DNA from: Terriglobia bacterium
Lineage (GTDB): Bacteria > Acidobacteriota > Terriglobia > Bryobacterales > Bryobacteraceae
Length of the DNA: 34,405 nucleotides
Direction of reading: 5' to 3'
NCBI GenBank assembly: GCA_025358575.1
Contig: JANYJA010000015.1
Span: 1-34,405 of the forward strand
The notes beneath the pieces were generated by a model. It made no database searches. It saw nothing but the letters and a program-made list of their open reading frames with translations, and was not told the origin of the DNA. Position numbers and translations under genes: made by a program. Positions 9,362 through 27,671 of the stretch are shown here, in pieces. Numbering within the stretch: position 1 is the first letter of the stretch; each line of letters begins with the position of its first letter.

Positions 9362-9513
9362 TTCGTTCAGCTTAAACCGTTTCGCCCCCACCGGCGAATG
9401 GAATGTGCGCAAGTGAGACGCTGAGTCCCAATATCGGACACTCCACGGCAAACTTCTTACCGGAATCAATAGGTTAGTAACGGCCCAAACCTTGCAAATT
9501 GAAAAACAATCTC

Positions 9514-11933
9514 ATGCGACAGGACTTATTGTTTGCCCTACGGACACTGATGAAAGTGCCCGGCTTTACCGCCGTGGCCCTGCTCACGCTCGCCCTGGGA
9601 ATCGGCGCGAATACCGCGATCTTTAGCGTTGTGAACGCCGTCCTGCTGCGTCCCCTGCCTTATCCCGATCCGGACCGGCTGGTGGCCGTCGATTCGTTCG
9701 ATTCTCGGCGCGAAGCAGCGCAGGGCGCGATCGGATATATGGATTTTTTCGACCTGCGCGATCTGAACAGCACTTTCGAGAACCTGGCGATTTATCGGGC
9801 CGACCGCGAGACGCTCAGCGGCACTGGTGTCGAAACGATGCCGGTTAGCACGGCGATCGTGTCGACGGATATTTTTCCGCTGATGCGCGTTACTCCATTG
9901 CTGGGGCGCTTCTGGACGAGGAGTGAAGAGAAACCAGGCAGCGCACTGAACGTGGTCATTAGCCTGAGACTTTGGCAGGAGCGATTTCACGGCGATCCGG
10001 CACTCCCGGGGAAAACAATCATGCTGGGACGGCGCGCCTACACAGTCACCGGAATCGCAGGTAAGGGCTTCCAATTTCCGATGCAGACGCCGCTGGTTGA
10101 TATTTGGATTTCAATTGCCGTGGAGACGGTTCCTTCCGCCGGCGAAGCCGCGCAATATCCAGACCGAGGCGCCCAGTATTCCGATGCCATCGGGCGCCTG
10201 CGGCCGGGAGTATCGATTGAACAGGCGCGGGCGGATTTGCAGACCATCGCCAAAAGACTGGGTAATCAGTTTCCATCCACGAATAAATACCGCGCCATCC
10301 GCGTCGTTAGCCAGACCGAGCGCGTGGTGGGCAAGGTGCAGCGGATTCTTTTTGTGCTGTTGGGTGCGGTGCTCGCGGTGCTGCTGATCGCGTGCGCCAA
10401 CGTGGCGGGGCTGCAATTATCCCGCTCGGCTGGCAGAGCCCGTGAGGTGGGAATTCGAATCGCATTAGGAGCCGGTCGAATGCGCGTGATCCGGCAGTTG
10501 CTAGCCGAGAGTCTCTTGCTTTCGAGCGTGGGTGCGGCGCTAGGTTTACTGCTCGCTTGGTGGAGCGTGGAAGCCCTGGTGCGGCTTGCTCCGGCTGGGT
10601 TGCCGCGGTCCGAAGACATCCGAATCGACGGCGTGGTGCTCGCGTTCACCACCGCGATGGGCATGCTCGCCGGCATAGTTTCAGGGCTTGCGCCCGCCTT
10701 GCAGTTGGCCCGTGGCGACGCCGGTGAATCGCTCAAGGATGGCGCGCGCAGCGCGACGTCCGCGCGGCACAACCGCTTGCGCCGCGTATTCGTGACCTTG
10801 GAAGTAGCGCTCGCGCTGGTGCTGCTCATTGGTTCGGGACTATTAATCGAGAGCCTCTGGAAACTGCAAAGCGTGAAGCCTGGTTTTGAACCGGGGGGCG
10901 TTTGGACCGCGCACGTATCGCTGCCCGATGCGCAGTATTCCGAAGAACGGCAAGCGGCGTTCTTTCGTGAGTTGTTCGCGAGGTTGGAGTCGCACCCGGA
11001 AGTGGCGGCTGCCGGCGGCGCGATGCCATTGCCCCTCAGCGGGAACGATTGGGGCACCAGCTTCGATCTGGTCACCCACCCGCTTCCTCCCGAAGAGCGG
11101 CCGCACGCGGACCGGCGAATTGTGACCCGTGATTACTTCCAGACGATGGGAATCCCGGTGCTGGCGGGCCGGGCGTTTACCGACCGCGACACGCAGGCCT
11201 CGGGTTTAGTGGCAGTGGTTAACGAGACACTGGCGAAACGTTTCTTCCCAGGGCAGAATGCAGTGGGCCAGCGGATCAAGATGGGCAAAGAACGCGAGAT
11301 CGTCGGCGTGGTTGGCGATGTGAAGCATGACCGCTTGAGCGCCGCATTCACGCCCGAGTTGTATTTGTCGGAAGATCAATCTCCCATGTCGTTCCTGAAC
11401 ATTGTCGTAAAAGCGAAGACCGCGAATGCCTCTGTGGTCGCGCCAATCCTGCAGGCGGACTTGCGTGCGCTGGATGCCGAGTTGGTCGCGTTCGATCCGT
11501 ACCCGATGACCCATTACCTGGATGGCGCGCTTTCGCAGCCCCGCTATTTGGCGATGCTGCTCGGGCTGTTTGCCGCTCTCGCCCTGACGTTGACGATTGT
11601 GGGGCTATATGGGGTCATAGCCCATTCGGTGGCGCAGCGAACGCGTGAGATTGGCACGCGAATCGCGCTCGGTGCGCTGCCCCGCGACATCGCCCGCATG
11701 GTGGTTGGGCAAGGCTTCGGCATCACGCTGGCCGGTGTCGGGATCGGAATCGCCTGCGCACTAGGTTTCACTCGCGCGCGCTGCGGAGCCTCCTTTATGG
11801 AGTAGGCGCCGCCGATGCAATCACATTCGTCGCCGTGGCAATTCTCCTTACGGCCGTGGCCATCCTTGCCTCATGGATTCCAGCCCGCCGCGCCGCGCTC
11901 ATCGACCCGATCTCGGCACTCCGGCACGAGTGA
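9514..11933 (+). CDS. ADOP-type duplicated FtsX/MacB permease, frameshifted near the 3' end
   Basis: An inner-membrane protein of about 800 aa with two tandem halves, each a MacB-like periplasmic core plus an FtsX transmembrane bundle. The first half opens with [19 protein letters not shown] and its FtsX part contains [19 protein letters not shown]. The second half starts near [18 protein letters not shown] and ends in [18 protein letters not shown]. The open frame stops at 11805 in a garbled tail. The expected last helix and ending ([13 protein letters not shown] through [17 protein letters not shown]) continue in another frame to a TGA at 11931-11933. The frame change maps to a CGCGCGCGC run at 11773-11781, where two extra bases explain it. 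The start is ATG 9514 ([10 protein letters not shown], as in the family); TTG 9499 is also in frame. No ATPase gene adjoins it. Without the last helix the protein is probably impaired. Confidence 0.85.
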
Positions 11934-11990
11934 GATCACAAGTGAAGCAGGCTACTTGTAGACCAAGCGGCGTGAAGAATCCGGCGAGAT

Positions 11991-16483: not shown

Positions 16484-17218
16484 ATGCTCATGGAAATCGG
16501 ACATGTGGAGGCGATCTTCCGGTATCCCGTGAAGTCCATGCGCGGCGAACCGCTCGATGCCGCCAAGCTGGGCTGGCACGGCCTCGAGGGTGACAGACGC
16601 CTCGCATTCCGGCGGATTGATGACCGCAGCGGGTTCCCGTGGCTAAGCGCAAGCAAGCTTCCCGACCTGCTCCTGTTTACGCCGCAGCGCCGTGAAGACG
16701 GTGCTCAGGGCGACCTTCCTACGCAGATTCGCACGCCGGATGGTGAAGAAATGCCTGTCTTCGGGGAGGACTTGGCCACGGAGATCGGACGTCGTTACGG
16801 GGCTCCGGTGCAGATGATGCAGTTAAGGCATGGCATCTTCGATGAAGCGAGCATCTCCGTGATCGCCTCCGATACAGTGCGCGAGATCGGACGGCTCGCC
16901 GGGGGGTGCCCGGACGTGCGACGATTTCGCCCGAATATTGTCGTTCGTTTACTGCGACCGGTTCCCTTCCAGGAAGACGAGTGGTTGGGCGGTGTGCTCT
17001 CATTCGGCGACGGGGACGATGCCCCCGCCATCACCGTAACGATGCGCGACATTCGCTGCTCGATGGTGAACCTTGATCCCGACTCGGCAATCCCAGCGCC
17101 GGAAGTGCTGAAAGCGGTTGTTCGCGCGAACCAGAACAACGCGGGAATCTACGGCGCGGTCACTCGCGTCGGTCGACTTGCGGTCGGACAAACCATACTC
17201 TTCCGTTCGGCGCTATAG
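16484..17218 (+). CDS. MOSC domain protein
   Basis: A 244-aa cytoplasmic protein with an N-terminal MOSC_N beta-barrel (VEAIFRYPVKSMRGE, residues ~6-90) and the C-terminal MOSC domain (~110-240). The conserved cysteine that can carry sulfur is in MRDIRCSMVNLDPD. This is the pattern of the molybdenum-cofactor sulfurase C-terminal family and of YcbX/mARC-like proteins, which bind Moco and reduce N-hydroxylated compounds or transfer sulfur. No 2Fe-2S domain follows, so a redox partner would be separate. ATG 16484 and ATG 16490 are both plausible starts. Its stop overlaps the stop of the convergent kinase gene in a shared CTATAG. Confidence 0.84.
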   Translation: MLMEIGHVEAIFRYPVKSMRGEPLDAAKLGWHGLEGDRRLAFRRIDDRSGFPWLSASKLPDLLLFTPQRREDGAQGDLPTQIRTPDGEEMPVFGEDLATEIGRRYGAPVQMMQLRHGIFDEASISVIASDTVREIGRLAGGCPDVRRFRPNIVVRLLRPVPFQEDEWLGGVLSFGDGDDAPAITVTMRDIRCSMVNLDPDSAIPAPEVLKAVVRANQNNAGIYGAVTRVGRLAVGQTILFRSAL

Positions 17219-18541
17219 CGGCAGCCACAATCTCGCCACGCACCCGCCCCCATCCTCCCGATTGCTCAGCGTCAAATCGCCCCCATGCGCCTCGGCAATC
17301 TGCCGGCTCAGCACCAGCCCAATCCCGGACCCTTGCGGCTTCGTCGTGAAGAACGGGACGAAGACATTGCTCAAATTCGCCATCCCAGGCCCATCGTCTT
17401 GCACCAGCAGCTCCAGCGCGTTCGCCGCCAGCGACCACGTCACCGTCACTTCGCCCGACGCCGAGTTGCGCTCCATCGACGCATCTACGGCGTTGCGGAC
17501 TACATTGATCAATAGTTGTTCGAGCTGATCGCGGTCCGCGCGTATCGTCACGTCGGGGCCGGCGCGCACGATCACCGCCATCCTCGTCTCCAGTTGCGCC
17601 ACATGCATCACCAGATCCGCAACCTTCACCGGCGCGCGTTCCGGCCGCGGAAGCCGCGCCAATCTTGCGTACGATCGCGTAAAACGGCTCAGCGCTTCAC
17701 TGCGGCTTGCGATCGCGCTCAACCCGCTGCGCGCATCCTCCCGCCAATCCTCCGGTAGCGGATCGCGCGCCAGCAGATCCGCCAGGCTTTGCGATATCGA
17801 CTTCACCGGCGTCAATGAATTATTAATCTCGTGGCCCAGCACGCGCACCAGTCTCTGCCACGCCACCAGTTCTTCTTCGCGCAGCGGGCTGGTAAGATTC
17901 GAGATCACCAGCAGGGTATGCGAAAGGCCGCCCTCCCGAAATTCCGTCCGCTTCGTTCCCCAGATTCCGGCGCCGCCCGGGAACGCAGCACGCACCACGG
18001 CGGGAGCGTCGTCCGAAAGATATTCCGATAAACCGATTTCATGAGCGGAACGGTGCAGAATGCGTTCGGAGGTCCGTGCCAGCAGGCGTTCGCCAGCCCG
18101 ATTGATCAATCGCAAGCGTTCTTCGCTGTCGAACGCAAACACGGCGACGTCAATCTCTGCCATCACCTTTCGCAGCAAAGCCGTGGCTTCGAGCGCGCTC
18201 AGGCGCTGTTCGCGCAGCGTCTTTGCCATGGCATTGATTTGCATCGCTACTTCGCCGAGTGCATCGTCGGGATCGTCGGTGCGGGCGCGAAGCGAAAAAT
18301 CACCCTCACGTAGTGCCGCCAGGAGGTTGGAGAAAGTGCGCAGCGGAAACACCACGTTCTCGTGCAGTGAAGCCCCGAAGCCGAGCCACAAAAGCAGAAT
18401 GAATGCGGTGAGAGTCCACTGTGTCTTCGGGCTGAAATCGCCCGTCCACAAAAGAATGATTGCGACCGATGAACCGGGAAGTCCCGCGCCAAACGCCAGC
18501 AGCTTGATGCGGCGCTCGAAGTGGATGCGCCGCGTTTTCAT
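17213..18541 (-). CDS. NtrY-like sensor histidine kinase with almost no extracytoplasmic domain
   Basis: A 442-aa inner-membrane kinase. Two helices (residues ~14-32 and ~43-59) are separated by about 10 residues, so there is practically no periplasmic sensor. A HAMP-like linker (~60-115) follows, then a PAS-like domain (~122-220: LLRKVMAEIDVAVFAFD). The dimerisation/phosphoacceptor helix has H237 in LGHEINNSLTP (the family usually has HEIKNPLTP). The ATPase domain has DDGPGMA and GSGIGLVLSRQIAEAHGG. Its ATG overlaps the stop of the response regulator by 4 nt (ATGA), so the two are cotranslated and form a two-component pair. It is the last gene of the seven-gene transporter operon. With no own sensor loop, the signal is probably intramembrane or comes from the transporter. 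Confidence 0.9.
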   Translation of the reverse strand: MKTRRIHFERRIKLLAFGAGLPGSSVAIILLWTGDFSPKTQWTLTAFILLLWLGFGASLHENVVFPLRTFSNLLAALREGDFSLRARTDDPDDALGEVAMQINAMAKTLREQRLSALEATALLRKVMAEIDVAVFAFDSEERLRLINRAGERLLARTSERILHRSAHEIGLSEYLSDDAPAVVRAAFPGGAGIWGTKRTEFREGGLSHTLLVISNLTSPLREEELVAWQRLVRVLGHEINNSLTPVKSISQSLADLLARDPLPEDWREDARSGLSAIASRSEALSRFTRSYARLARLPRPERAPVKVADLVMHVAQLETRMAVIVRAGPDVTIRADRDQLEQLLINVVRNAVDASMERNSASGEVTVTWSLAANALELLVQDDGPGMANLSNVFVPFFTTKPQGSGIGLVLSRQIAEAHGGDLTLSNREDGGGCVARLWLPL

Positions 18542-19890
18542 ACGTTGCGCTGCAATCGCCGGTACAAAGCGCTGCGGCTTAATCCCAGTGCCTTCGCCGC
18601 CAGGCTCACGTTGTCGCCGTGTCGAGCCAGAGCCTTGCGGATCAGCAGGCTTTCCACTTGTTCCAAACTCAAATCTTCGATGCGCGTTTGACCCGCGGAT
18701 TTCCCTCGAAGGCCCAGGTCCGCAACCTGAACCAACTCCCCGCGCGTCACCAGGACGGCTCTCTCGATGGCGTGCTGCAACTCGCGCACATTGCCCGGCC
18801 AGTTATGCTCCATAAGATACTGCAGCGCGGCCGCGTCGAAATTCAAAACAGTCTTACGATAGCGCTGCGCGTACTGTGTGAGGAAGTGGGCCGCCAGCAA
18901 AGGAATATCTTCGCGACGGTCGCGCAGCGGCGGAAGCTGAATCTCGATGGCGTTCAGCCTGAAGAGTAGATCGGCGCGAAAGCGGCCCGATTCCACCTCC
19001 TGGCCCAGGTCCGCATTGGTCGCTGAAAGTATCCGCACATCCACCTTGATGGTGCGCGACGACCCCACCTTTTCCAGTTCCCCGGTTTGGAGCACGCGCA
19101 GCAACCGGCTCTGCTGTGTCGCGGAAATATTCGCGATTTCGTCCAGAAAAAGCGTTCCGCAGTCGGCCAGTTCGAAGCGCCCCACGCGGTCGGCCTTCGC
19201 GTCCGTAAACGCCCCCCGCACATGCCCGAACAACTCGCTTTCAAAAAGCGTTTCGGAAAGGCCCCCGGCATTCACCGCCACCAGCCTCTTCGACGCGCGA
19301 TGCGAAAGCGCATGCAGCGTTTGCGCGACAATTTCTTTGCCAGTGCCGGGTTCGCCGCTAATTAGCACGTTCGCGTCGGACGGGCCCACGTCCTCCATCA
19401 GCCGCAGCACCGGCTTCATCGCGGCGCTCTGAGCGATGAGGACCGGCAGATCCCCCGCGCGCAGCATGCGGTTCTCAGCTTCCAGACGCCGGCCTTGGCG
19501 CAATGCATTCGCCAGTTCCACCTGGTTGCGCACCACCGCCGCAAGCCGCGCATTGTCCCAAGGCTTTTGGATGAAATCGCGCGCACCCGATCGCATGGCT
19601 TCCACCGCCACGTCCACCGTCCCCCACGCCGTCATCACCACCACGCGCACGCACGAATCAATCGCTTGCAGCCGCGCCAGCAAATCTAGGCCTTCTTTGC
19701 CGGACGTAGTGTCACGCGCGTAATTCAGGTCGATCAGCGCAACATCGAACTCGGTGCGTTCCACCGCCGCGGTCGCTGCTTCTGGCGACGCAGCCAGCTC
19801 CGTCTGGTAACCTTCGGCCTTCAACAACAGCCGCAGCGCTTCAAGGACGTCGGGCTGATCGTCGGCGATCAGGATTCTGGGAGCGGCCAC
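18538..19890 (-). CDS. NtrC-type sigma-54-dependent response regulator
   Basis: A 450-aa three-domain activator. Receiver domain at 1-120, with acidic pair D10/D11, phospho-acceptor D54, T87 and K109. AAA+ domain at ~150-380, with Walker A GEPGTGKE (179-186) and Walker B GTLFLDEI. The sigma-54 contact loop reads GAFTDA (226-231) instead of the usual GAFTGA; the Thr that touches sigma-54 is kept. A Fis-type helix-turn-helix lies at the C-terminus (NVSLAAKALGLSRSALYRRL). It works by phosphorylation from the downstream kinase, hexamer formation and ATP-driven opening of -24/-12 promoters. It starts 8 nt after the second ATPase gene and overlaps the kinase gene. The likely target is this operon's own promoter region, where palindromes are present. 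Confidence 0.93.
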   Translation of the reverse strand: MAAPRILIADDQPDVLEALRLLLKAEGYQTELAASPEAATAAVERTEFDVALIDLNYARDTTSGKEGLDLLARLQAIDSCVRVVVMTAWGTVDVAVEAMRSGARDFIQKPWDNARLAAVVRNQVELANALRQGRRLEAENRMLRAGDLPVLIAQSAAMKPVLRLMEDVGPSDANVLISGEPGTGKEIVAQTLHALSHRASKRLVAVNAGGLSETLFESELFGHVRGAFTDAKADRVGRFELADCGTLFLDEIANISATQQSRLLRVLQTGELEKVGSSRTIKVDVRILSATNADLGQEVESGRFRADLLFRLNAIEIQLPPLRDRREDIPLLAAHFLTQYAQRYRKTVLNFDAAALQYLMEHNWPGNVRELQHAIERAVLVTRGELVQVADLGLRGKSAGQTRIEDLSLEQVESLLIRKALARHGDNVSLAAKALGLSRSALYRRLQRNV

Positions 19891-19898
19891 AGTCCTTA

Positions 19899-20570
19899 CT
19901 ATTTCACGATCCAGCCGTCTGCTAGTTCAATGGTCCGGTGGCCGTAGCCGGCATTCTGTTCCGAGTGCGTGACTTGAATGATCGTCGTGCCCTCATCGTT
20001 GAGCTTCTTGAAAAGCTCCATGATTTCCTTGCCCTGCACCGAATGCAGATTGCCGGTCGGCTCGTCCGCCAGAATCAGTTTGGGGCTGGCGATCACGGCT
20101 CGCGCGATGCCCACCAGTTGCTGTTGGCCCCCGGAAAGCTGGCTGGGAAACAGGTCCTTCTTCCCGACCATGTGAAAGCGATCGAGCGTGTCCGCAACCA
20201 ATGCCATACGCTCCGATTTCTTCACGTCGCGATACGAGAGCGGCATATCCAGATTCTCGGCCACCGTCAGGTCGTCAATTAAGTGATAGCTCTGAAATAC
20301 GAACCCCATGTTTCGCTTATTCATTTCGGCGCGCTGCCGGGAATTCATCTGGTGCACGGGGTTGCCGTGAAAAAAATATTCTCCGGTCCAGGAATGATCG
20401 AGCATGGCGATGATGCTCAACAGCGTTGACTTCCCCGAGCCCGAAGGCCCCATGATTGTCAGGAATTCGCCCTCGCGGACTTCAAGTTCGATGCGGCGGA
20501 GAACATAGGTGCGCGACGGCCCCGCCGGAAACGACTTTTCTAGGTTGTGCAACTGAATCAGTGGAATCAT
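19899..20570 (-). CDS. MacB/LolD-type ABC transporter ATPase 2, with atypical D-loop
   Basis: A 223-aa ATP-binding subunit. Walker A GPSGSGKS (41-48), Q-loop at FQSYHL (~92), signature LSGGQ (145-149), Walker B LILADE (165-170) and switch His in QVTHSEQ are all present. The D-loop differs from the family: NLHS with H176 instead of NLDS; the codon CAT differs from Asp GAT by one base. After the signature it reads QQLVGIARA rather than QQRVAIARA. Members of this group power FtsX-type permeases without moving substrate through them. It lies 10 nt after permease B and 8 nt before the response regulator. It may form a heterodimer with ATPase 1 of the same operon. Confidence 0.92.
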
Positions 20571-25485: not shown

Positions 25486-26181
25486 TTACACCACCGCTTC
25501 GATGCTCTCTTCGACAATCCGTCCGTCGAACATGTGAATTGTGCGGTCTGCGAACTTGGCATAGCGCGGATCGTGCGTCACCATGCAGATGGTCGCGCCA
25601 TTGCGATGCAAATCGCGCAGCAGATCCATCACTGCCTCGCCATTTTGCGAATCGAGATTTCCCGTCGGCTCATCCGCCAGCAGCACCGATGGATTTCCGG
25701 CCAGCGCTCGCGCCACGGCCACGCGCTGCTGCTGGCCCCCGGAGAGTTGCGACGGATAGTGCTTCACGCGATGTGACATGCCCACCTTTTCGAGCGACTC
25801 CATCACCGCTTTCTTGCGATCCGCGCTGCCCATGCCGCGATAGGTCAGCGGCAATTCCACATTTTCATAGACGTTCAAATCCCCGATGAGATTGAAGGCT
25901 TGAAAGATGAAGCCGATCTCGCGATTGCGAATGCGCGCGCGTTCGGAAATCTTCAGCCCGCTCGCCGCCTTGCCATTCAGCGTGTAACTGCCGTCACTCG
26001 GCGTATCGAGCAGCCCCAGAATAGCTAGCAGCGTGGACTTCCCGCAGCCCGACGGGCCGGAGATAGACACGTACTCGCCCTTGCGGACGTTGAGCTCGAT
26101 CCCCGAAAGGGCATGCGTCTCCACTTCGTCCGTGATGAATACTTTCTTTACCCCATCCAGCTGGATCATTGCTTCCGACAT
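25486..26181 (-). CDS. MacB/LolD-type ABC transporter ATPase 1
   Basis: A 231-aa ATP-binding subunit with fully canonical motifs: Walker A GPSGCGKS, Q-loop FQAFNL, signature LSGGQQQRVAVARAL, Walker [14 protein letters not shown], switch His MVTHD. In contrast to the second ATPase of the operon, the D-loop Asp is intact. ATG 26181 was chosen because GAAGAG lies 4 nt upstream of it; in-frame ATGs at 26193 and 26169 are alternatives. It follows the adaptor gene by 50 nt and precedes permease A by 17 nt. It is expected to drive the duplicated permeases from the cytoplasm. Confidence 0.93.
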   Translation of the reverse strand: MSEAMIQLDGVKKVFITDEVETHALSGIELNVRKGEYVSISGPSGCGKSTLLAILGLLDTPSDGSYTLNGKAASGLKISERARIRNREIGFIFQAFNLIGDLNVYENVELPLTYRGMGSADRKKAVMESLEKVGMSHRVKHYPSQLSGGQQQRVAVARALAGNPSVLLADEPTGNLDSQNGEAVMDLLRDLHRNGATICMVTHDPRYAKFADRTIHMFDGRIVEESIEAVV

Positions 26182-26231
26182 GTGTCTCTTCATCCCCTTC
26201 AGTACTTCGCGTCTCCGCTAAAGTTACCGGC

Positions 26232-27524
26232 TTAATTCAAACGGATTCGATTCTGCGAATCCATGCCCGTGATATCCGACAGAATTACCTGATCTCCCGG
26301 CCGCAACCCATCCAGCACTTCCACCACGCTCACCGACGCGCGGCCCAGCCTCACGCGAACGCGCGCGGCCCCGTTCCCATCGGCGTCAATCTTGAAAAGC
26401 GAAATCGTCGTATTCGGCTGTCCCGACGTCGGCCGACCCATGTAGATCACGTCCGTCAGACGCTCCAATTCGATCACCCCGTCAACGCTCAAATCCGGAC
26501 GAGCGCCCTGGGGCAGCGCGCCTAACAGCGCCACGTCCACCAGCACGCTGCCATTCACGGCTGCCGGGTCGATCCGCGTTACGCGTCCCGCAATAATGCC
26601 GTTGCGCGTATCGATGGAAGCCGGCTGGCCCACCGCGATGTCCTTCGCTTCGGTCTCGGTGACTTTTAGCTCCGCTTTCAGCTTCTCGGGCTGCGCGATT
26701 TTCGCGAGCACCGTGCCAGCCGCAACTCGCTGACCAACTTCCAGCTTCCCCGCCGCTTGACCCGCAACCAGCGCGTCCGCGCCCAACTGCAGCAACACTC
26801 CTCGTGCCCCAGCACGAATCCTGAGCTGCTCCACCTGCTCCTGCTTCAACTGATGCAATGCGCGCAATTGCGCGATCTTTACGCGCTGCGATTCCATCTG
26901 CGCCTTCACCGATTCGTCGATGATCTGCAGCCGCTGCTCTTCCAAGCCGTTCTGCGTGCCCAGTTCCTTTGCCTTCGACGCCGAGATTTTGGCATCCAGC
27001 GATGAAACCAGCCCTTCCTTAAATAACTGCGCGTCGCGCTCCGCCTTCAGGCGCGCTTCAGTGAAATCCCCGCGAACTTTCGCCGCCGCGGATTGTTTAT
27101 CGAATCCCTGGCTTTGCAGCGTGACGCGCAGATCGATCAGCGCCGCTTCCGCGACTTTCAAATCGTACTCGGCGGTCACGGCATCGAGGATCAGTTCCGG
27201 GTTGCTCAACTCGAGAATGATGGTGTTCGGCTCGACAATCTGGCCCGGACGCATGTTGATTCTGACGATGCGCCCGTCGGTTTGTGCCGGAATGAATAAA
27301 ACCTGCTCGGGAATCAGCGTTCCCACTCCTCGCACCTGCCGCAGGATTGGCCCGCGCTTCACCGTGTCCGGAACCACGGTGGCTTTCTCTACGGAGGGCA
27401 CCGCCGGCCGCAACTGCTTCACGCCGATCGTGATGCCAACGACCACCACAAGTGCCAGTGTGCCGAGTGCGGCCCGAATCATCATGCGGCGTCGCGCAGC
27501 GCCTTTCCCGCGGGGTATGTCCAT
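26232..27524 (-). CDS. HlyD/MacA-type periplasmic adaptor, first gene of the operon
   Basis: A 430-aa membrane-anchored adaptor. It has a basic N-terminus, one helix (residues ~15-33), and a barrel/lipoyl half at ~60-110 (VGTLIPEQVLFIPAQTDGRIV). A long helical hairpin (~115-245, rich in Ala/Glu/Lys/Gln, for example RVKIAQLRALHQLKQEQVEQL) follows, then the second lipoyl half, a beta-barrel (AELKVTETEAKDIAVGQPAS) and a membrane-proximal domain ending GDQVILSDITGMDSQNRIRLN. This is the architecture that bridges an inner-membrane ABC permease to an outer-membrane TolC-like channel. No TolC gene is in the window. ATG 27524 was chosen because it starts just before the basic/hydrophobic N-terminus; an AAGAG lies 12 nt upstream inside a hairpin loop. 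The frame is open up to 27638. A decayed copy of its N-terminus lies at 28753-29024. Confidence 0.9.
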   Translation of the reverse strand: MDIPRGKGAARRRMMIRAALGTLALVVVVGITIGVKQLRPAVPSVEKATVVPDTVKRGPILRQVRGVGTLIPEQVLFIPAQTDGRIVRINMRPGQIVEPNTIILELSNPELILDAVTAEYDLKVAEAALIDLRVTLQSQGFDKQSAAAKVRGDFTEARLKAERDAQLFKEGLVSSLDAKISASKAKELGTQNGLEEQRLQIIDESVKAQMESQRVKIAQLRALHQLKQEQVEQLRIRAGARGVLLQLGADALVAGQAAGKLEVGQRVAAGTVLAKIAQPEKLKAELKVTETEAKDIAVGQPASIDTRNGIIAGRVTRIDPAAVNGSVLVDVALLGALPQGARPDLSVDGVIELERLTDVIYMGRPTSGQPNTTISLFKIDADGNGAARVRVRLGRASVSVVEVLDGLRPGDQVILSDITGMDSQNRIRLN

Positions 27525-27552
27525 TGCGATGGCTACTCTTGCATCGCAATGG
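27521..27552. promoter_or_regulatory. 11-bp perfect inverted repeat covering the adaptor start codon
   Basis: Arms CCATTGCGATG (27521-27531) and CATCGCAATGG (27542-27552) are perfectly complementary with a 10-nt loop. On the minus-strand mRNA the start codon (27524-27522) lies in the stem and the only Shine-Dalgarno-like AAGAG lies in the loop. It could be a translational hairpin or, since the arms are two helical turns apart (21 bp centre to centre), a dimer binding site. Confidence 0.6.
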
Positions 27553-27555
27553 CCA
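27540..27555 (-). promoter_or_regulatory. Candidate sigma-54 (-24/-12) promoter of the transporter operon
   Basis: Minus strand TGGCCATTGCGATGCA: the invariant GG and GC doublets are exactly 10 nt apart, with TGGC and TGCA matching the consensus TGGCAC-N5-TTGCA. Transcription would start near 27529, leaving only about 5 nt of leader, so either the mRNA is nearly leaderless or the match is by chance. It overlaps the inverted repeat at the start codon. Confidence 0.35.
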
Positions 27556-27606
27556 GCGCGAAGTGATTGATTCGATTGTGAGCCTTCGTAGGTAAGTGTC
27601 CGATTC

Positions 27607-27623
27607 TGGGACGAATCGTCCCA
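27607..27623. promoter_or_regulatory. 17-bp perfect palindrome upstream of the operon
   Basis: TGGGACGAATCGTCCCA, with 8-bp perfect arms around a single A. It lies 83 bp upstream of the adaptor start and at about -85 relative to the proposed -24/-12 promoter. Fis-type activators bind such sites as dimers, so it is a candidate enhancer for the operon's own response regulator. A matching half-site (TCGTCCC) occurs at 27813-27819. Confidence 0.5.
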
Positions 27624-27652
27624 CCAGCGAAATCCCATTGCGGAAAGGTCAA

Positions 27653-27671
27653 GCCACTCGAATTCAGTGGC
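27653..27671. promoter_or_regulatory. Second, weaker palindrome upstream of the operon
   Basis: GCCACT (27653-27658) and AGTGGC (27666-27671), separated by 7 nt containing GAATTC. Centre about 47 bp from the centre of the 17-bp palindrome and near -132 from the proposed promoter. The sequence differs from the first palindrome, so a shared binding protein is not implied. Confidence 0.3.

Follow-up and report, generated by a model that had tools for sequence, protein, structure and literature searches.

What controls the transcription of a seven-gene exporter operon in a Bryobacteraceae genome is the question raised by a stretch of DNA of 34 405 nucleotides from a Terriglobia bacterium (contig JANYJA010000015.1; hereafter, the window). 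Read from 27524 on the minus strand, the genes follow the order adaptor-ATPase-ADOP-ADOP-ATPase-regulator-kinase: an HlyD/RND-type periplasmic adaptor beginning with MDIPR (26232..27524, PF13437 and PF16576, start codon 27524-27522), an ABC ATPase of the LolD/MacB/DarD-like kind (25486..26193, PF00005), two duplicated permeases of the ADOP family (P0006, 22991..25468, and P0005, 20581..22974), a second ABC ATPase (19899..20570, PF00005), an NtrC-type response regulator (18538..19890) and a histidine kinase (17213..18541, PF02518), the start of which overlaps the stop of the regulator gene. We infer that these seven genes form one transcript. The regulator combines a PF00072 receiver, a PF00158 sigma-54 AAA+ domain with a GAFTDA loop and a PF02954 Fis-type helix-turn-helix (HTH), in agreement with an earlier note on this DNA, according to which the operon encodes a sigma-54 activator with a Fis-type DNA-binding domain; RpoN is encoded in the same genome (PF04552, 188 bits, G000:C5:7803-8276).

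The assignment of permeases to the ADOP family rests on the curated TIGR03434 cut-off of 622.3 bits, which is passed by P0005 (815), P0006 (894), P0008 (980) and P0009 (847 bits). The adaptor scored under the cut-off of the RND_mfp model, and the operon proteins under that of the MacB model. In an alignment of 17 adaptors, residues M1, D2 and R5 do not vary, and the 80 best relatives of the adaptor come mostly from Bryobacterales, Bryobacteraceae, Solibacter and other Acidobacteriota metagenome-assembled genomes, with a few of the Verrucomicrobia type. The kinase has, by eye, two hydrophobic stretches with a loop of approximately eight residues between them, a short-loop pair that presumably resembles those of intramembrane-sensing kinases.

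With high probability, the region 27633-27540 is the control region of this operon, in which the operon's own NtrC-type regulator would drive a sigma-54 promoter, a case of positive autoregulation. The earlier note had proposed an NtrC-type autoregulated sigma-54 promoter at this place, and this proposal is now supported by the regulator gene in the operon, the presence of RpoN, a conserved pair of operator and promoter, the periodic spacing between the two, and the co-occurrence of operator and regulator among genomes.

The predicted sigma-54 promoter, TGGCCATTGCGATGCA (27540..27555, minus strand), has the exact GG-N10-GC arrangement, with the -24 GG at 27554-27553 and the -12 GC at 27542-27541, as had been noticed before, and matches 8 of the 12 consensus letters; transcription would start at 27529. 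Taken alone, this element is unremarkable: the window contains, both strands counted, 110 GG-N10-GC sites with a score of at least 8, and a relaxed sigma-54 consensus search of the window yielded 43 matches compared with 53.7 expected, without exceeding the shuffles, so that the promoter question is settled only through comparison. In 27 other orthologous promoters, a GG-N10-GC site aligns with this element. In the first set of loci, all 28 operator-bearing promoters (window included) contain a GG-N10-GC site with a score of at least 7 at most 75 nt from the start codon. Of 27 promoters, the window among them, 18 have a site with a score of at least 9 downstream of the operator, and the same pairing count in 200 shuffles had a mean of 0.8 and a maximum of 4. 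The earlier note listed two weak points, the -12 box ATGCA and a leader of about 5 nt. Both lose weight because the inferred leaders of the 28 first-set promoters span 5–20 nt and -12 boxes starting with G rather than T (GTGC) are common among them; the 5 nt of the window do stand as the shortest leader. The AT profile of the promoters, considered with regard to IHF or AT-rich DNA, showed no sharp motif. A 14-nt inverted repeat (27518-27531 / 27542-27555, 93% complementary, 10-nt spacer) was also seen here, with one arm including the -24/-12 element and the other spanning the start codon.

The upstream DNA of the first set comprised 300 nt from each of 29 loci besides the window. A de novo Gibbs search of these 29 promoters recovered the half-site GTCCCA..AA.C, with an information content of 17.2 (two shuffled runs gave 10.1 and 9.7); the motif extends to CGTCCCANAANCGGACAC, and 26 of the 29 promoters have at least 12 of the 16 consensus letters. 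Locus L026 has the operator in reverse orientation. When both strands of the window were scanned with a matrix built from 26 of the 29 orthologous promoters, the window being left out, the top match was 27596-27613 on the minus strand (23.7 bits, 16 of 16 letters), followed by 9424-9441 on the plus strand (18.7 bits) and 32-49 on the minus strand (15.4 bits). The comparison supports the first of these, CGTCCCAGAATCGGACAC, as the conserved upstream activator site or main operator (27596..27613; 17-bp core 27597-27613), with 51 bp between its center and the downstream -24 GG. The third match, CATTCCAAAAGCGGAGAC, lies at the contig end. Throughout the 4.77-Mb genome, two sites have at most two mismatches to the operator, namely 27596-27613 and 9424-9441. 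With up to three mismatches, 40 matches compare with 24 in the control, so that there is little in the genome beyond the two sites of the window, and the pattern TGTCC-N7-GGACA with one mismatch (140 strand matches in the same genome compared with 114 in the control) was discarded as too loose.

The operator cut-off of 11 bits was chosen after the window had been scanned, and three sites of the window exceed it; narrow passes were G044 (11.6) and the regulator unit of G027 (11.5). A further 80 named loci, reduced to 71 by removal of nine duplicates (L256 and L282 were both kept, with 131 of 150 aligned positions identical), have the operator in 42 cases (42 of 70 when L284, a duplicate of L041, is subtracted), and 39 of the 42 also have a sigma-54 site. 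Both elements are present at locus L236 of Bryobacterales bacterium F-183, the genome of which is nearly complete. The operator stayed under the cut-off in 29 of the 71 loci, including the two whose adaptors show the highest identity, which have weak operator-like sites 83 and 71 bp from a sigma-54 site. Variant palindromes were seen in two loci where the usual operator is missing, GTGTCCGGATCCGGACAC within a 30-bp palindrome in L041 (G007) and GTGTCCGAATTCGGACAC in L246, both with an N6 center.

The link between operator and regulator can be gleaned from their distribution in a panel of 61 genomes, 50 of which have an adaptor match and 36 of which have a regulator ortholog at the threshold of E ≤ 1e-150. 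The DNA upstream of the adaptor gene was read in all 36 regulator-containing genomes and in 12 (14 loci) of the 14 adaptor-bearing genomes lacking the regulator, G028 and G051 being left out; the stretches were up to 400 nt for the further adaptor loci and 400 nt (plus 30) for the regulator loci. By hand tally, an operator above 11 bits precedes the adaptor gene in 31 of the 36 genomes with the regulator compared with none of the 12 without it (Fisher 8.9e-8, kinship ignored; 10 of the 12 belong to a single genus, g39, and G017 and G058 are separate cases). The five regulator-containing genomes with an adaptor operator under the cut-off are G007, G015, G053, G057 and G059. The regulator loci were read in 30 of the 36 genomes. 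In 18 of them, an ABC gene precedes the regulator at no more than 1.5 kb, and in 12 it does not; again by hand tally, the regulator has its own operator in 7 of the 12 loci of the second kind compared with 0 of the 18 of the first (Fisher 3.9e-4). For each of these seven operators, including the weak one of G027, a sigma-54 site is found at a distance of 50, 52 or 63 bp. Whichever gene order is considered, the operator thus tends to accompany the regulator. Autoregulation fits both arrangements: the regulator lies downstream in the controlled gene row, and separate regulator loci often have an operator of their own.

The same distribution bears on the possibility that a different enhancer-binding protein works through the operator and the sigma-54 promoter, both of them genuine, and that the operon's regulator acts elsewhere. 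Other activators do exist, with 7–162 regulator-like candidates per genome at first look, and G017 keeps a sigma-54 site (TGGCAGGGTGGTTGCG, score 10) although neither the operator nor the regulator was found there. However, the operator tracks this particular regulator between genomes, also where the regulator-kinase pair is apart from the exporter, and the 30 regulators compared differ little in the HTH stretch LGLSRSALYRR, which makes a different activator unlikely.

The second-best match to the matrix points to a further target within the window. This operator, AGTCCCAATATCGGACAC (9424..9441, plus strand), is followed, 50 bp from its center, by a sigma-54 site, CGGCCCAAACCTTGCA (9481..9496, plus strand, 10 of 12 letters), and by the gene of the ADOP-family permease P0009 (9514..11805, plus strand, PF12704 and PF02687), with an ATG start and an inferred leader of 7 nt. 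The ADOP gene at 9514 is probably a second target of the same regulator. Its usual C-terminal stretch runs on in another frame (window 11600-11936), which means either a disrupted gene or an error in the sequence. An operator over the cut-off was seen for 3 of 27 ADOP relatives of P0009, including the window's own; the listed relatives are 36–46% identical, so that there is no clear one-to-one ortholog.

In relatives, operators were also found before ADOP genes (L136, spacing 52; L153, spacing 71; L149, best sigma-54 site 132 bp away), before regulator-kinase pairs (L133 in G029 and L148 in G031, both among the seven regulator units counted above) and before genes for receiver-SpoIIE phosphatases (L132 in G029, spacing 50, sigma-54 score 8; L137 in G032, spacing 94), the receivers of which are 61% and 60% identical, respectively, to that of the regulator. 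These loci were picked via their operator matches and do not represent a census. Operator-like sites are in excess in G029, G032 and G021, which was considered as a sign of a large regulon and rejected: 29 of 34 sites in G029 (35 pattern matches) and six of eight in G032 have repeated flanks and mostly no well-scoring sigma-54 site at the typical spacing, and the G029 and G032 sites were therefore set aside as dispersed repeats. In G029 (L107-L112, L114-L126, L128-L131, L134, L135), these repeats are approximately 45 bp long with the core CCAAACGACCCTA-GTCCCA(C/T)AAACGGACA; in G032 (L138-L140, L142-L144), they are also approximately 45 bp long, with the core AATTCGAACCCA-ATCCCAAAATCGGACACT. 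G021 has many matches to the TTCCCAAAATCGGACAC pattern, the sequence context of which was read for L166 and for the adaptor promoter L019. These sites possibly represent a mobile or REP-like element with the operator core in common.

The spacing between operator and promoter, measured from the operator center to the -24 GG, was compiled for 67 promoters (28 from the first set and 39 from the named loci), each operator being paired with a sigma-54 site no farther than 75 nt from the start codon, a rule under which L028 pairs at 75 bp (otherwise 31). The distances fall into clusters of 51–52, 61–64, 70–76, 82–87 and 99–107 bp, with stragglers at 59, 80 and 94 bp; the 51 bp of the window itself is the minimum. 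The cluster centers, about 51, 62, 73, 84 and 105 bp, make up a natural series that could serve as a test set for selection on enhancer-promoter phasing in short loops. The best period over all 67 promoters is 11.1 bp (R = 0.613, reached by none of 20 000 uniform draws), compared with R = 0.580 at 10.5 bp; at 11.1 bp, the first set alone gives R = 0.782 (0 of 20 000 draws) and the second set alone 0.504 (9 of 20 000), p-values that overstate the case, given that the relatives share ancestry and do not represent 67 independent draws. The pattern suggests that the operator-promoter distance among relatives changes mostly by whole helical turns.

Such periodicity relative to the -24 box argues against a sigma-70 promoter as the main driver, with the sigma-54 element as an auxiliary or a relic and the conserved element conceivably a repressor site. 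This alternative draws on AT-rich stretches (e.g. CATAATG) between the operator and the -24 box in several relatives, and on the sigma-54 box of the window, which is among the weaker ones of the compared promoters, but the same operator/sigma-54 pair recurs before regulator-kinase units and ADOP genes, and we consider a sigma-70 driver very improbable.

Upstream of the main operator, an alignment of 62 promoters (window excluded) contains a second, weaker conserved block at positions -21..-5 before the operator, which looks like a tandem operator copy 20–21 bp upstream; from -75 to -22, no column of these promoters rises above the random 99% level. The corresponding weak tandem site of the window (27617..27633, minus strand, identified by eye) lies 20 bp from the main operator, and its right half, GGACG at 27621-27617, alone is recognizable. 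The earlier note had pointed to a 17-bp perfect palindrome at 27607-27623 and an inverted repeat at 27653-27671 in this region. Both are present: TGGGACGAATCGTCCCA is a perfect 8+1+8 palindrome, and GCCACTCGAATTCAGTGGC consists of two 6-bp arms separated by a 7-base center. The palindrome reads as a junction to which the weak site contributes its right half and the main operator its left half; the palindrome and the main operator have only the CGTCCCA half in common. With 119 perfect inverted repeats of this kind (6-bp arms, loop of 0–10) in the window, the second repeat is unremarkable. That these two elements are the activator sites is hardly credible: the palindrome is the sole one with 8-bp arms and a loop of 0–1 in the window, but it occurs in 1 of 30 promoters, that of the window itself, and the second repeat falls in the zone without conservation in the 62 promoters. 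Read literally, the refuting outcome named in the earlier note, a palindrome not conserved before orthologous operons, thus did occur, but the comparison revealed a conserved element overlapping it, and the role of activator site passes to this candidate, 27613-27596 on the minus strand.

Under autoregulation by the operon's own regulator, the membrane kinase would phosphorylate the NtrC-type regulator, dimers of which would bind the main operator at 27613-27596 and, with its help, occupy the weak tandem site approximately two helical turns upstream. The bound dimers would then assemble into an AAA+ hexamer that contacts sigma-54 RNA polymerase at 27555-27540 across approximately 51 bp and opens the promoter, so that the exporter and the two-component system would rise together. 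The inducing signal could be envelope stress or an exported toxic compound. More tentatively, and with somewhat less than even confidence, a single GAFTDA-type activator may govern a regulon throughout this lineage of Bryobacterales-type Acidobacteriota, the operator lying close to the promoter (50–107 bp) and having moved in the course of evolution mostly by whole turns. Its targets would be the exporter, the two-component genes of the activator itself, additional ADOP permeases and, in two of the genomes, a phosphatase of the receiver-SpoIIE kind; if such a regulon exists, the receiver-SpoIIE branch might provide feedback or partner-switching.

The exact GAFTGA loop is absent from the regulator of the window, which has GAFTDA, the form also found in 26 of 30 regulators. 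GAFTGA has been called invariant (PMC12316311), GAFTDA has been counted among the activity-compatible variants, with DVU2106 (GAFTDA) listed with targets (PMC4641369), and a pull-down with the GAFTDA-bearing VfmH recovered no RpoN (PMC10714721). Given this mixed published view, we speak of a regulator that would work like a sigma-54 activator and treat the exact motif as non-defining. The conserved sigma-54 promoters described here suggest that surveys requiring exact GAFTGA would drop an activator family. Judged from sequence comparison, the type of regulation is ordinary, the comparative support is good and the regularity of the spacing is neat. For an exporter type found repeatedly among Acidobacteriota genomes, the comparison defines an operator and a promoter, names a candidate regulator and predicts further targets.

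Among the closest known systems are those of a 2025 study that predicted sigma-54 control of FtsX/MacB-type ABC genes in other classes (PMC12316311); shared with it is the predicted sigma-54 control of a COG0577 permease (Gammaproteobacteria, Opitutia, Bacteroidia) and a COG1136 ATPase (Opitutia). Its main text does not mention Acidobacteri, Acidobacteriota or Terriglobia, no operator or spacing rule was encountered in the parts of the paper available, and its activator list, as described there, takes exact GAFTGA only and would drop the GAFTDA family found here. Besides that study, the titles and abstract starts among the matches listed included nothing recognizably on this operator-exporter system, which leaves its absence from the literature unproven. 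The QseF/GlrR system (PMC8745638), as far as the available text describes it, has in common a sigma-54 response regulator, a TGTC...GACA palindrome and two-component genes inside the controlled operon, but its site is TGTCN10GACA and its target genes are others, whereas the site here is TGTC-N9-GACA with inner CC and GG; together with the score of the regulator against the GlrR model (305.8 bits compared with a cut-off of 763), the N9 spacing places the operon outside that regulon. With the darobactin exporter DarBCD and the MacAB-type tripartite exporters, the operon shares the grouping of adaptor, ATPase and MacB-like permease genes, but its permeases are of the ADOP family, and the DarC, DarD and MacB models remain under their cut-offs (DarC 48 of 450 bits, DarD at best 262 of 375 bits). 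NtrC of nitrogen control has the same domain order as the regulator, which reaches 343.7 bits against the TIGR01818 cut-off of 558.6. Finally, compared with sigma-54 activator sites in general, which, according to a review seen in part (PMC7057263), lie approximately 100–150 bp upstream of the promoter, the operator described here is close, with its center 50–107 bp from the -24 box.
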